From NCBI GenBank assembly GCA_029863385.1, contig JAOTVU010000037.1:1-33974 (forward strand): a stretch of 33,974 bases of DNA, in the 5' to 3' direction. Source of the stretch: Acidimicrobiia bacterium (lineage in GTDB: Bacteria; Actinomycetota; Acidimicrobiia; Acidimicrobiales; SZUA-35). A program made the translations under genes and the position numbers. Of the stretch, positions 1,825 through 23,620 are shown one piece after another. The notes under the pieces were generated by a model that worked only from the letters and a program-made list of their open reading frames with translations, ran no database searches and was not told the origin of the DNA. Numbering within the stretch: position 1 is the first letter of the stretch; each line of letters starts with the position of its first letter.

Positions 1825-1873
1825 GGAGATGGTTGCGCTCAGGTCGAGCGCGGCTCGAAAGGGGGAAATCCTC

Positions 1874-2455
1874 GTGGCCACACGAATCACCCCGGTGGAG
1901 CCCGGTCAGAGTTCCGACGCCGAGGTCAACCAGATACTGGCCGATGGTAGAGACGGCTGGTGGGGTGACGCCGCCATGTTCGGCGTCATCGCCCGCAACC
2001 CGCAGATGCTCAAGGCCATCGTGCCGGTCTTCGTCTCGTTCTTCGGCGAGGGAGCCGTCGAACCGCACATCCACGAGATGATGCGATTGAAGACCGGGCA
2101 GATCAACGACTGCGCCTATTGACAGACGGTACGAACCACCGCCGTGAGCGGTGCCGTAGGACCCAAGGAACACGCCCTGTTCGAACACCAGCCCAAACCA
2201 GGCGCGGAGCTGACCGAGCGGGAGGCATTGGCCGTCTCGCTGGCCGAGCGCATCGCACTCGATCCCCACACTGTGACCGACGAGTTCTTCGCGTCGTTGA
2301 AGCCCCACTTCACCGACGACGAGATCGTGGAGATGGTGTTTGCCTGCTCGATCTTCAACTGGGGCAACAAGTTCAACATCACCATGAACCTGGACTCCTC
2401 GCCCGAGTCGGCCTACCCAACGGACATGGAGTACCGCCAGGAGGAGATCGCCTAG
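1874..2455 (+). CDS. AhpD/carboxymuconolactone-decarboxylase-like selenoprotein (in-frame TGA = Sec)
   Basis: Read through one TGA (2120-2122), this frame gives 193 residues. The first part (MATRITPVEPG... GRDGWWGDAAMFGVIARNPQMLKAIVPVF... RLKTGQINDCAY) and the second (QTVRTTAVSGAVG... LTEREALAVSLAERIALDPHTVTDEFFASLKPHF... FACSIFNWGNKFN) are the two halves of one CMD/AhpD-like domain in the same frame, with no shift. Family members read NDCAYC at the redox CxxC; here the second Cys codon is TGA, giving C80-A-Y-U83. A SECIS-like hairpin follows. Sec at this position of AhpD-like proteins is known in other bacteria. The GTG start is chosen for its AGGGGG Shine-Dalgarno about 8 nt upstream and the family N-terminus; in-frame ATGs upstream are less likely. 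The thioredoxin gene starts 29 nt downstream. A Cys-to-stop mutation or base error is the alternative. Confidence 0.8.
2120..2157 (+). other. UGA Sec codon plus SECIS-like stem-loop
   Basis: After TGA (2120-2122), CACCGC (2137-2142) pairs with GCGGTG (2148-2153) around a five-base loop CGTGA. ACGG (2126-2129) can pair with CCGT (2154-2157) below it, leaving a 5' bulge; an alternative fold pairs ACGGTAC with GTGCCGT. The loop begins 20 nt after the UGA and has G as its second base. Both fit the general pattern of bacterial SECIS elements: a short hairpin just downstream of the UGA with an early G in the apical loop. Free energy was not computed. Confidence 0.6.
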
Positions 2456-2484: not shown

Positions 2485-2805
2485 ATGACCATCGACGAGA
2501 TCACCACGACCGCCGAACTCAACCGCATCATCCTCGGTGAGCATCGGGGAGTCGTGCTCGACTTCTGGGGGACCTGGTGTCAGCCCTGCCGGTCGTTGCG
2601 ACCCCATCTGGAACGCCTGGCCGACGATCATGGAGACCGCTGGAGAGTGATTGCGGTTCACTGTGAGGAGAGCCCGTCGCTGGTCGACGCCTACGACGTG
2701 CGGTCGACTCCGACGCTGGTGTTTCTACGCGACGGCGACGAGGTCGATCGCACCACCGGTGCGGTGACCCCGTCGTCGATCGCCGGGAAACTGGCCGGCT
2801 TGTGA
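2485..2805 (+). CDS. Thioredoxin
   Basis: A 106-residue single-domain thioredoxin. VVLDFWGTWCQPCRSLRP (residues 23-40) contains the active site W31-C-Q-P-C35; STPTLVFLRDG (about 73-83) has the conserved cis-Pro, and an amphipathic C-terminal helix follows. The usual site is WCGPC, and Gln in place of Gly should shift its redox potential. No signal peptide is present, so it is cytosolic. The ATG at 2485 gives the normal family start; the open frame further upstream overlaps the selenoprotein gene in another frame. It lies 29 nt after the selenoprotein stop and is probably co-transcribed. Thioredoxin would be a natural reductant for the CxxU site, though that pairing is inferred from position. 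Confidence 0.9.
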   Translation: MTIDEITTTAELNRIILGEHRGVVLDFWGTWCQPCRSLRPHLERLADDHGDRWRVIAVHCEESPSLVDAYDVRSTPTLVFLRDGDEVDRTTGAVTPSSIAGKLAGL

Positions 2806-16780: not shown

Positions 16781-19700
16781 ATGTCGTTGAATCGTGTCCG
16801 GGTGCGAGTACTGGCCGTGGCAACCTTGGCGGCGGGCCTGGCCGCCGTGCCGCTCAGCCCGACCGCCGCCGATCACACGCCGACTCCCACGTCGGTGACC
16901 GTGGCCGGAAGTCTGCAGGAGGAGTTGGGCTGTCCCGGTGACTGGCAGCCCGAGTGCGCCGTCACCCATCTGGGCTACGAGGCCGATTCCGACGTCTGGT
17001 CCGGCACCTTCACGGTGCCCGCCGGTGCCTGGGAATACAAAGCCCCGTTGAACGATTCGTGGGACGAGAACTACGGCGCCAACGCCGTCCGGGACGGCGC
17101 CAACATTCCGCTCGATCTGGCCGCCGACACCGACGTCACGTTCTACTACTCCCACAACACCCACTGGATCACCGACGACGTCAACGATCGTATCGTCACC
17201 GCCCCCGGCAGCTACCAGGCCGCCGTCGGCTGCCCCGGTGACTGGCAGCCCGAGTGCATGCGATCCTGGCTCCAGGACCCCGACGGCGACGACGTCTACA
17301 CCTTCACCACCACCGCCATCCCCGCCGGCTCCTACGAGGCCAAGGCCGCGGTCAATCGGAGCTGGGATGAGAACTACGGCGTCGGCGGCGTGGCCAACGG
17401 ACCCAACATCGCCTTCACCGTCGGCGCCGGGCAGGCCGTCACGTTCTCGTTCGACTCGGCCACCAACGTCTTGACCATCGACACCGGTGAGAGCCCCTAC
17501 TCCGACACCGTCGAACCCGGTGACGAGGCACTGGTGGCGGCACCCGTCCGCCCCGAATCCGACGAGTCGGTCTACTTCGTGATGACCGACCGGTTCGCCA
17601 ACGGCGACACCAACAACGACGCGGCCGGGCTGACCGGCGATCGCCTCGACCACGGGTTCGATCCCACCGACAAGGGTTATCACCACGGCGGTGACATCGC
17701 CGGCCTCCAGGCTCAGCTCGACTACATCGAGGGTCTCGGCGTGAGCGCCATCTGGATCACCCCACCGTTCAAGAACGACTACATCCAGGGACCCGGCGCC
17801 GAGGTGTCCTCGTCGTATCACGGCTACTGGCAGATCGACTTCACCCAGATCGATCCCCACTACGGCACCAACGCCGAGATGCAGGCCTTCATCGCCGACG
17901 CCCACTCCCGCGGCATCAAAGTGCTGTTCGACGTGGTGCTCAACCACACCGGCGATCTCATCGACTACGTCGAGGGATCAACCCCGCTGTACCGGAACAA
18001 GACCGACTTCCCCTACCTCGACGCCACCGGTGCCGAGTTCGACGACCGTGACTTCGAGGGCACCGGCACCTTCCCCGAGCTCGACCCGGCCACCAGCTTC
18101 CCCTACACCCCGATCGTCACCGAGGCCACCAAGGCACCCGATTGGCTCAACAATCCGATCTACTACCACAACCGGGGCGACTCCACCTTCGCCGGTGAGA
18201 ACAGCCAGTACGGCGACTTCTTCGGCCTCGACGACCTGTTCCACGAGCACCCCGACGTGGTCGCAGGCATGATCGACATCCACACCCAAATGATCGACAC
18301 GTTCGATGTCGACGGGTTCCGGGTCGACACCGTCAAGCACGTGTCCGACGGCTTCTGGGAGGCCTGGGTTCCCGCCGTGCTCGACCACGCAGCGGCCGCC
18401 GGCAAAAACGACTTCGTGATGTTCGGCGAGGTGTTCGGGGAGACTCACCAGTTCCGCTCCCGCTACTCGACCGAACTCGACTTCCCGGGCACGCTCGACT
18501 TCGGGTTCAACGGCAACGCCTACCGGTTCGCCGCCAACTCGGCGCCCACCAACGAGCTGACCGCCTTCTTCGCCACCGACGACTGGTACACCGACACCGA
18601 CTCCAACGCCCATGACCTGGCCAAGTTCATGGGCAACCACGACATCGGCCGCCTCGCGCTCGAGGTCGTCAACCTCAACGGTGGCGCCACCGACGGCGAA
18701 CTCGTCGCCCGGCTCGAGATCGCCCAGGCCCTGAACTGGCTGACCCGGGGCCTCCCCGTTGTCTACTACGGCGACGAGCAGGGTTTCGTCGGCGACGGCG
18801 GAGATCAGGACGCCCGGCAGGACATGATGCCCTCGCAGGTCGCCACCTACAACAACGACGATCTGATCGGCACCGACGCCACCACGGCCGACTCGAACTT
18901 CGACACCACCCATCCGCTGTACCAGGCGATCGCCGACCTTGCTGCCGTGCGGGAGGCCAACCCGGCGCTGCAGACCGGGGCCCAGATCGTGCGCTCCTCG
19001 TCCGGCTCGGCCGGTATCTTCGCCTTCAGCCGCGTCCAGCCGGGCGGAACCGGCAACGAGTACGTGGTGGCCATCAACAACGCCGAGTCCGAGCAGTCGG
19101 CCACGTTCGCCACCGACACGGCGTCGTCGGGCTGGACTGCGGTCGCCCCGGCGTCGGCACCGGCGCTCACCTCCGATGGCGACGGCAACCTGACCGTCAC
19201 CGTCCCGGCGCTGAGCTGGGTGGTCTATCGGGCTGGTTCGCTGCTGACCGCGGGCGCATCGGCCGAAGGTTTCGCCATCGCCATGACCGCTCCCGCCGAG
19301 GGCGCGGAGGTGGTGGGTCGGGCCGAGGTCGGCGCCGACCTGCTCGACGACCGCTACGCCGAGGTCACGTTCGCCGTGTCGGTCGACGGTGGGCCGTACG
19401 AGGTGATCGGGACCGACGACAACGCCAACTACAACGTCTATCACGACGTCAGTGGCTACGCCGTCGGGTCCACGGTCACGTTCAAGGCCATCGCCCGCGA
19501 CGCCGGCGGCAATCTGGTGTCGAACACCGTCTCCGCCGTGGTCGGCGAAGAGGTCGTACCGCCTCCGCCCGGTGGTGGCGACGCGGCCTATGCCATCATC
19601 CACTACCAGCGCTCCGACGGTGACTACGGCGATCATACGACGGGCGACTTCAACGACTTCTGGGGTCTGCACCTCTGGGGTGATGCCATCGACCCATCCG

Positions 19701-22700
19701 AGGTCACCGAGTGGCCGAGCCCGAAGCCGTTCCTCGGCGAGGACGAATACGGCCGGTTTGCCTGGATCAAACTCGCCGAGGGGGCCAGCGCCACCGACAT
19801 CAACTTCATCGTCCATCGGGGCGACACCAAGGACGGCACCGACGCCGATCGGTTCTTCGACGCCGGCGCCAATCCCGAGATCTGGCTCAAACAGGACGAC
19901 GGCAACACCTACACAACCCAGGCCGACGCCCAGGGGTACGTGACCATCCACTACCAGCGACCCGACGGCGACTACGGCGACCCGACCTCGTCGGACTTCA
20001 ACGACTACTGGGGCTTGCACCTGTGGGGCGACGCCATCGATCCGTCGGAGGCCACCGAGTGGACCGGAGCCAAGCCGTTCGACGGTATCGACGACTATGG
20101 CGCCTACTGGAACGTGGCGGTGGTCGATACCTCCCAGCCGGTCAACTTCATCATTCATCGGGGCGACGCCAAAGACCCCGGCCCCGACCAGTCGATGATC
20201 CCGGCCGATGACGCGTCGATCTGGATCCAGTCGGGTGACGAGGTGATCTACGGCGCCCGGGGGGCGGCCGAGGACTTCGCCACCATTCACTATCACCGCG
20301 ACGACGGTGACTACGGCGATCCCTCCAGCGTCGACTTCAACGACTTCTGGGGCCTCCACCTCTGGGTGGGCGCGGCCGAGCCGAACCCGTCGTGGCAGCA
20401 GCCCATGAAGCCGACCGGGTTCGACCTGTTCGGACCGTACTGGCAGGTGCCTCTGGTCGACGGCGCTCCCGAGCTCGCCCACATCATCCACCGGGGCGAC
20501 ACGAAGGACCCCGGTCCCGATCAGTTCCTGACCTTCTCCGTCTACGATCACGAGGTTTGGCAGTTGGAGAACGCCGATCCGAATTCGCCCTACATCATTC
20601 CCGTGCCCGGTGGCGGGGGAGGAGGTGGCCCGACCGGCAACCTGAACGAGCAGCGGGCCCACTGGGCCGACGCCACGACCATCGTGTGGGATCCGGGCGA
20701 CGGGGCGGCCGTGCCTGGCGGCCAAGCCGAACTGTGTGGTGCCGTGGCCGGGGGCATGTCCTTGAGCGACACCGGCCTGAACGGCGCCGACACCTGCATT
20801 GCTCTGACCGCCGGTTCCGCCTACCCGTCCGACATCGACGGTCAGCTCCACCTCGGCGGACGTCCGACCTGGACCATCGACGCCGCCGACGCGGCGTTGG
20901 TGCCGGTGCTCCTGACGGGGCAGGTGGCTGTGGTCGCCCTCGACGGTGACGGCAACCGGGTCAACGCCGCCGGTCTCCAGATCGCCGGTGTGCTCGACGA
21001 TCTCTACGCCACCGGCACCGAGTTGGGTGTTGTCTGGTCGTCGGCGTCGCTGCCGGCAACCCCGCCGCTGCCGACGCTGAAGCTGTGGGCGCCGACCGCC
21101 ACGTCGGTCGCTCTGCGCGTCTACGACGGTCCGACCGGGACCGACTACGAGACGATCGCCATGACCCGGGGCAGCGCTGATGAGGCCGGCGTGTGGTCGG
21201 CGACCGGTGAGGCCGACTGGAACGGCAAGTACTACCTGTACGAGGTCGAGGTCTACGTCCCGTCGCTCGATGCGATCGAGATCAACCTGGTCACCGACCC
21301 CTACTCGTTGTCGCTGGCCCGCAACTCCACCCGCAGTCAGATCGTGGATCTGGCCGACCCGGATCTGGCCCCGGCCGGGTGGGCGGACACGGCCAAGCCG
21401 CCGCTCGGATCCTTCGAGCAGGCCTCGGTCTACGAGCTGCATGTCCGCGATTTCTCGATCCGCGACGAATCGGTACCGGCCGGTGATCGGGGCACGTTCG
21501 CCGCGTTCACCCACGAGAACTCCGACGGGATGCAGCATCTCTCCGCCCTGGCCGACGCCGGGCTGACCCACGTGCATCTGCTGCCGGTGTTCGACATCGC
21601 CACGATCGACGAGGATCCGGCGGCTCGGACCGAACCCGACTGGGCGACGCTCGGGTCGTTCCCGCCGGACTCCGATCAGCAGCAGGCGCTGATCTCGCCG
21701 ATCCGTGACGACGACGGCTTCAACTGGGGTTACGACCCGTTCCACTACACGGTGCCCGAGGGTTCCTACTCCACCGACCCCCAGGGGCCCACCCGGATCA
21801 CCGAGTTCCGTGAGATGGTGCAGTCGCTCAACGGCACCGGGCTGCGGGTGGTGATGGACGTTGTCTACAACCACACCAACGCGGCCGGACAAGCCGACAA
21901 GTCGGTGCTCGACCGGATCGTGCCCGGCTACTACCACCGCCTCGACGAGGCCGGTACGGTCACCACCTCCACCTGTTGCCCCAACACCGCCACCGAACAC
22001 GCCATGATGGGCAAGCTCATGGTCGACTCGGTGGTGACCTGGGCGAAGCAGTACAAGGTCGACGGCTTCCGCTTCGACCTGATGGGCCACCACTCCAAGG
22101 CCAACATGCTGGCCGTGAGGGCCGCCCTCGACGAACTGACCGAAGCCGACGACGGCGTCGACGGCTCCAAGATCCTCATCTACGGCGAGGGCTGGAACTT
22201 CGGTGAGGTGGCCGACAACGCCCGCTTCGAGCAGGCCTCCCAGCTCAACCTGGGAGGCACCGGTATCGCCACCTTCTCCGACCGGCTGCGAGACGCTGTG
22301 CGGGGCGGCGGACCGTTCGACGGCGGCGATGCCCTGGTCGTCAACCAGGGCTGGCTCAACGGCCTGTGGTACGACCCCAACGCCTCGGCCATGCCGCAGG
22401 CGCAGGCGCTCGATCGGCTGCTGCTGGCGGCCGACCAGATCCGGGTCGGGCTCGCCGGCAACCTGGCCGACTACGAGTTCGTCGATCGAACCGGGGCCAC
22501 GGTCACCGGGTCCCAGATCGACTACAACGGCTCCCCGGCCGGCTACACCGCCGACCCCCAGGAGAATGTCGTCTACATCGCGGCCCACGACAACCAGACC
22601 CTGTTCGACATCGGGCAATACCACCACCCGCTGTCGACCTCGACCGCCGACCGGGCCCGAGCCCAGAACGTCGGCAACGCCGTGGTGGCACTGGGTCAAG

Positions 22701-23620
22701 GTGTGTCGTTCTACCACGCCGGTCAGGACATGCTGCGGTCGAAGTCGATGGACCGTGACTCGTACAACTCCGGTGACTGGTTCAACCGGCTCGACTTCAC
22801 CTACCAGACCAACAACTGGGGTGCAGGGTTGCCGGTCGAGGAGGTGAACGGCGACAACTGGTATCTGATCCAGCCCCGCCTGGCCGACCCGGCGCTGAAG
22901 CCGACGTCGGACGACATCGAGTTCAACGCCGCAGTCACCCGGGAGTGGCTGCAGATCCGCACCAGCACGCCGCTGTTCTCGCTGCCGTCTGCGACCGCCG
23001 TGCAGGACGCCGTGAGCTTCACCAACACCGGCCCCGACCAGACCCCCGGTCTGATCGCCATGTCGATCGACGACGTCGGCGGCGTCGACGACGAGGCCAC
23101 GGGAGTCGTGGTGCTGTTCAACCCGACGACGTCACCGGTCGAGCACACGATCGCGGAGGTCGCCGGCTCCCGGGCTCAGCTGCATCCGGTACTGGCCGGG
23201 TCGGTCGACGAGGTCGTCCGCACCGCCTCCTTCGACGACGCCACCGGCACCTTCACCGTCCCCGCTCGCACCGCGGCGGTGTTCGTGGTCCCCGAACCCG
23301 ACGTCACGCCGCCGACGGTGACCGCGGCGCTGGAGCTGGTCCAGCAACGCGGTCGGAACGGTGTCTATCGGGTCGTGGCGTCGTGTGTCGACACCGGAGG
23401 TGTCTCCAGCGCTGATGGCGGCGTCGTGGCCGAGTTCTCGGCCGAGCTCAACGGGGTGCCGGTGATCGACGGCCAGGAGGTCTTCCTCATCCAGCGGCCG
23501 GGTCAGCAGAAGGTCATCGACAACGGACCCCAGGTCACCATTCAGGCGCCGTCGTTCGAACTGGTCGTCACCTGTACCGACGCCTGGGGCAACACCACCA
23601 CCGAACGAATCACCCCCTAA
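16781..23620 (+). CDS. Secreted amylopullulanase: two GH13 catalytic domains, X25 and CBM41 modules
   Basis: A 2279-residue exported enzyme for alpha-glucan breakdown. Modules in order: signal peptide (1 to about 30); two X25-type repeats (about 37-245, each with CPGDWQPEC and RSWDENYG-like blocks); a GH13 alpha-amylase domain from about 263 with D384VVLNH, DGFRVD516, GEVFGE (E550) and GNHD621; an all-beta C-domain and an Ig-like segment; three CBM41-type repeats (about 937-1050, 1054-1165, 1167-1275; HYQR-DGDYGD and [10 protein letters not shown]); a Gly-rich linker; a pullulanase N-domain and CBM48-like domain; and a second GH13 domain with FNWGYDP (1647-1653), D1693VVYNH, DGFRFD1766, YGEGWN (E1803) and AAHDNQ (D1937). 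Both catalytic triads are intact. The second domain fits type I pullulanase, with Phe for Tyr in YNWGYDP. No LPxTG anchor is present. ATG has AGGGGGC 5 nt upstream. Confidence 0.92.

Follow-up and report, generated by a model that had tools for sequence, protein, structure and literature searches.

Does a TGA codon inside a gene of the AhpD/carboxymuconolactone decarboxylase (CMD) type end translation, or is it read as selenocysteine (Sec)? The question was raised by the window, that is, the whole 33,974-nucleotide stretch of DNA analysed here, in which the initial annotation had described two in-frame halves of one such domain split only by a TGA and had proposed a probable selenoprotein. Read-through translation reproduced these coordinates exactly: with TGA taken as a residue, 1874-2455 is a single frame whose sole odd codon is TGA 2120-2122, residue 83 in QINDCAYU, which is the second Cys position of the CxxC motif (NDCAYU). 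We found that the TGA is almost certainly decoded as Sec (probability about 0.96), so that the region would form one intact AhpD-like selenoprotein gene, which standard annotation would break at the TGA. The proposal is supported by the Sec machinery of the genome, the conservation of the TGA in orthologs, a covarying hairpin, Sec/Cys alternation and purifying selection.

Table 1. Features of the predicted selenoprotein locus, in window coordinates.
Feature	Position	Strand	Description and basis
Possible ribosome-binding site	1860..1865	+	AGGGGG, 8 nt 5' of the GTG at 1874; suggested by sequence
AhpD/CMD-fold gene, predicted selenoprotein	1874..2455	+	193 aa, GTG start, TAG stop, CxxU (Cys80, Sec83); read-through translation, orthologs, profiles, model
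Cys80 codon of CxxU, probable resolving Cys	2111..2113	+	TGC; invariant in 29 orthologs; putative role
TGA codon, predicted Sec, residue 83	2120..2122	+	TGA in 22 genes including the window gene, Cys codon in 7
Bacterial SECIS hairpin, predicted	2137..2153	+	6-bp stem CACCGC/GCGGUG, loop CGUGA (2143-2147), 20 nt between UGA and loop; covariation in TGA genes
Thioredoxin gene	2485..2805	+	106 aa, WCQPC; PF00085 74 bits; 29 nt downstream of the selenoprotein gene

Conservation of the TGA and of the hairpin behind it

Twenty-one orthologs in other genomes (57-94% identity; n=22 with the window gene) carry TGA at this very codon; they belong to Actinomycetota (Acidimicrobiia and Haloechinothrix), Acidobacteriota, Chloroflexota and Alphaproteobacteria. 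Seven orthologs, from Pseudonocardia, Rhodococcus, Methylibium, Duganella, Shinella, Pseudomonas and a Cellvibrionales MAG, have a Cys codon (TGC or TGT) at residue 83, which agrees with the earlier placement of the TGA at the second Cys of CxxC. The alternation is clean, with 22 TGA versus 7 Cys and no third residue among the 29 orthologs. Ortholog identity across the genome collections searched was 49-94%. One Marinimicrobia sequence (L081) was excluded from all counts, as it aligns over residues 126-191 only and its upstream frame is non-homologous, and two genomes that had been entered twice (L025 and L026, the same as L059 and L060) were each counted once. A tree of Sec and Cys forms needed two changes; its deep forks are weak, and it does not fix the direction of the Sec/Cys exchange. 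In a phylum-wide profile search of 396 genomes (E<=1e-30) the own genome was the sole match, indicating that the family is rare and patchy.

The initial annotation had also remarked that both flanks of the TGA are well preserved, unlike those of a decaying gene. Pairwise comparison of seven orthologs gave dN/dS values of 0.06-0.30 C-terminal of the TGA and 0.05-0.29 in the N-terminal part. These low values on either side bear out the remark and indicate that the region 3' of the TGA is under purifying selection.

The initial annotation had suggested looking for a SECIS element within 2120-2160, and a covarying bacterial-type hairpin was found where it was predicted. Aligned from the TGA onwards, the 22 TGA genes show no gap over 45 bases, and RNAalifold predicted a single hairpin; it occupies columns 18-23/29-34 (2137-2153 in the window), and its loop is CGUGA, CGUGC or a close variant. 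Standard pairs occupy 97.7% of the cells in these columns, two-sided changes occur in four of the six pairs, and the covariation score was 0.421 versus 0.181 for shuffles (0 of 500 as high), also above all slid registers. The same columns in the seven Cys genes were paired in 35.7% of cells and showed no covariation. Some paired changes also replace amino acids (L058, for instance, has V in place of T and D in place of G), suggesting that protein conservation alone does not account for the pairing. When the window hairpin was folded as a single sequence its stability was not significant (z -1.3), and the support for it is the covariation. The published bacterial SECIS model requires G among the first two loop bases and a spacing of 16-37 nt from the UGA (PMC13188914); the window loop, which starts 20 nt past the UGA and has G second and then U, conforms to it.

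Selenocysteine machinery of the genome

The host assembly (5.04 Mb, 92% complete, 5.6% estimated contamination; closest named relative found, an Acidimicrobiia bacterium) encodes tRNA-Sec (66.3 bits, above the Rfam cut-off, with ARAGORN concurring), SelA (321 bits) and SelB (267 bits) adjacent on contig C265, and SelD (342 bits). Every component whose absence the initial annotation had named as a counter-argument is therefore present. The estimated contamination counts against the selenoprotein reading, but the same arrangement was seen in the assemblies of other species. SelD and formate dehydrogenase alpha are classical selenoproteins. In this genome the active-site motif of SelD (contig C127), SHGAGUACK, includes an in-frame TGA, which makes SelD itself a selenoprotein, and formate dehydrogenase alpha, FdhA (contig C190), has one at the usual Sec site, CNRTUHAPSVVGLATVFGAGG, with a hairpin downstream. 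These two genes thus serve as positive controls for the decoding of UGA as Sec in this genome. Across the ortholog set, SelA was detected in 21 of 22 Sec genomes versus 2 of 7 Cys genomes (one-sided Fisher p ~0.001, uncorrected for relatedness). One Sec-bearing genome (G419) had no detected SelA and another (G416) only a SelA fragment, plausibly because these assemblies are incomplete.

These data bear on two readings in which the codon is not Sec at all. If the TGA were a sequencing artefact, or a true stop that had replaced TGC or TGT in a decaying pseudogene, the single base that separates it from those codons and the existence of Cys homologs would be readily explained. However, the same TGA occurs in assemblies of many other species from four phyla, which excludes sequencing error and is decisive against this reading as a whole; dN/dS that stays low past the TGA, a hairpin that covaries in TGA genes only and the presence of the Sec machinery also speak against it, leaving it next to no credence. 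Just as little can be given to the idea that a suppressor tRNA or a changed genetic code inserts a residue other than Sec. The frame is open whichever residue TGA is taken to encode, but TGA is the normal stop of the adjacent thioredoxin gene (2803-2805) and of many orthologs, the genome has tRNA-Sec and a complete Sec machinery, and Cys is the only alternative to TGA that orthologs show at this position. On TGA conservation in orthologs, hairpin covariation and dN/dS, we rejected the pseudogene, sequencing-error and alternative-code readings. The selenoprotein reading implies that SelB, bound to the hairpin just 3' of the UGA, would deliver Sec-tRNA-Sec and make residue 83 Sec, as suggested by the Sec machinery together with UGA conservation and the RNA structure.

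Family, fold and active site

The window protein scored below the thresholds of the family models: 60.0 bits for TIGR01926 (cut-off 81.8), 64 bits for NF053654 GroundWater_YciW (cut-off 310), its best NCBIfam score, and 15.4 bits for Pfam PF02627 (CMD; gathering score 23). No NCBIfam model was reached at its cut-off, including every seleno-specific model touched. As the PF02627 score is below gathering, its AhpD/CMD membership rests on fold and profile searches. A profile search matched PA0269-type AhpD structures (E 1e-13), and the AlphaFold model (pLDDT 92.6) has an all-helical AhpD fold that carries the CxxU. In a comparison with the PDB, 169-176 residues of this model aligned with AhpD and peroxidase-related structures at Z scores of 16-17 (up to 17.3), the AhpD proteins of S. 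pneumoniae and D. radiodurans giving Z 17; the peroxidase-related structures 6K40, 6E8L, 2OYO and 2PRR have the same fold (Z 15-17). The YciW-related (seleno)protein NF053654 aligns over nearly the full length with a score far under its cut-off, and appears to be a relative from a different family.

Comparison with PA0269-type AhpD (PDB 2O4D/2IJC; fold Z 15-17) was used to describe the active site. A proton relay of Glu36, Cys48, Tyr50, Cys51 and His55 has been proposed for PA0269 (in classical AhpD, Glu, Cys, His or Tyr, Cys and His), and His55 is described as unchanged in every family member of that comparison (PMC3141380). Glu68, Cys80 and Tyr82 of the window protein correspond to Glu36, Cys48 and Tyr50, whereas the second Cys (Cys51) is replaced by Sec83 and the catalytic His55, four residues past it, by Arg87. 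Both Cys80 and Arg87 are invariant in all 29 orthologs. Many AhpD-like proteins that are more distantly related but come from the same order also have Arg at position 87, so this residue marks a wider branch, independently of Sec. Peroxidase activity of the window protein is not assured, the catalytic His of AhpD being Arg.

AhpD-like CxxU selenoproteins have been reported from the Sargasso Sea (PMC1088965) and from GOS (PMC2398784), and a 2026 catalogue lists AhpD-like selenoproteins, MCB9421940.1 among them, under TIGR01926, PF02627, NF041238 and NF041047 (PMC13188914), so the statement in the initial annotation that Sec is known in such motifs was correct. The window protein resembles the catalogued forms (TIGR01926/COG2128/PF02627) in its AhpD/CMD relationship, in having Sec second in CxxU, in its Cys homologs and in its downstream SECIS. 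It differs in scoring under the TIGR01926 and seleno-specific NCBIfam cut-offs and in the thioredoxin that adjoins most loci. Our comparison points to a real, probably uncatalogued subfamily of a known kind of selenoprotein, set apart by model scores. In the literature collection searched, no report of AhpD-like selenoproteins in Acidimicrobiia was found. A second AhpD-like family, which shares about 30% identity with the window protein, has an in-frame TGA in CPIU in five loci of other genomes of the same order (L028, L029, L034, L049 and L043), in the motifs QLNDCPIULNFRAAS and QINECPIULDTRAAS, followed by a hairpin of the GCUGCGUCGGUGACGCAGC type; this family is likely to be another selenoprotein.

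Thioredoxin neighbourhood and predicted function

In 20 of 29 loci (13/22 Sec, 7/7 Cys), spread across phyla, the gene directly behind that of the enzyme encodes a thioredoxin, and all seven Cys loci have a thioredoxin reductase gene close by. The order ahpD-like/trx/trxB is seen in the five proteobacterial Cys loci, and in those of Pseudonocardia and Rhodococcus trxB lies upstream on the opposite strand; in the genome of the window, trxB is present elsewhere, away from the locus. The thioredoxin of the window is likely to be encoded in the same operon as the selenoprotein and to be its electron donor. No thioredoxin gene adjoins the enzyme gene in the nearest relative (L054), in the Chloroflexota loci or in the majority of the Acidobacteriota loci, so there the reductant may come from elsewhere or differ. 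At 3582-3636 of L054, the thioredoxin gene is gone from between the selenoprotein gene and the gene downstream, for a 749-aa protein, both of which are conserved.

Promoter and terminator scans returned nothing. Elsewhere in the window, two similar repeats at 1682-1735, GTTTAAACGTTCGTTCAAA and GTTTAAACGATCGTTCAAT, lie upstream of a divergently oriented gene for a small membrane protein (minus strand, start 1665), whose neighbour encodes a regulator of the TetR type (minus strand, within 79-1140); the repeats are probable TetR operators. Very long open frames overlap at 16781-23620 (plus strand, 2279 aa) and 17978-22717 (minus strand, 1579 aa), presumably reflecting one giant gene in GC-rich DNA.

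On the basis of fold, motif and gene neighbourhood, we consider a thioredoxin-dependent (hydro)peroxidase or thiol-oxidoreductase role reasonably probable, and peroxide or disulfide reduction would be the likeliest task of the Sec/Cys centre. The Cys80/Sec83 pair, with Glu68, Tyr82 and Arg87 around it, would form the redox centre. The selenol of Sec83 would attack peroxide or a similar oxidant, a selenenylsulfide would then form between Sec83 and Cys80, and the neighbouring thioredoxin would reduce it and be recharged by the thioredoxin reductase whose gene lies at another site in the genome.

Other roles for a CxxU protein of this fold were weighed against this one. The selenoprotein might reduce no peroxide itself but act as an adaptor, taking electrons from thioredoxin or lipoyl proteins and handing them on to a separate peroxiredoxin, as M. 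tuberculosis AhpD, which has the same fold, does for AhpC (PMC3141380). We regard this as unlikely, because no AhpC-type peroxiredoxin gene was recognised adjacent to it among the neighbouring genes examined, and a thioredoxin gene is there instead. A selenol-dependent reductive dehalogenase, or a similar substrate-specific reductase, is suggested by the AhpD-fold debrominase Bmp8, whose structures 6ohi/6ohj are among the top fold matches (Z 16.6-16.7, about equal to AhpD), and the His-to-Arg change hints at chemistry unlike that of classical AhpD. Yet identity to Bmp8 is only about 16%, the fit to AhpD and peroxidase-related structures is just as good, and no halogen-metabolism gene was seen adjacent, so we think this role highly improbable. 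Scarcely better placed is the broader conjecture of a phylum-crossing family of AhpD-like selenoenzymes with a CxxU...Arg site, a dedicated thioredoxin and a substrate other than simple peroxide (for example, reductive dehalogenation as in Bmp8); if true, it would be a new enzymatic use of selenocysteine.

Under the favoured selenoprotein reading, the locus defines a clearly bounded AhpD-like subfamily with Sec and Cys forms and a covarying SECIS. Its thioredoxin neighbourhood, joined in the Cys forms by thioredoxin reductase, suggests a concrete electron pathway, open to testing, in a class of selenoproteins that is known from computation alone. The locus also indicates that these uncultured Acidimicrobiia-related bacteria use selenocysteine.
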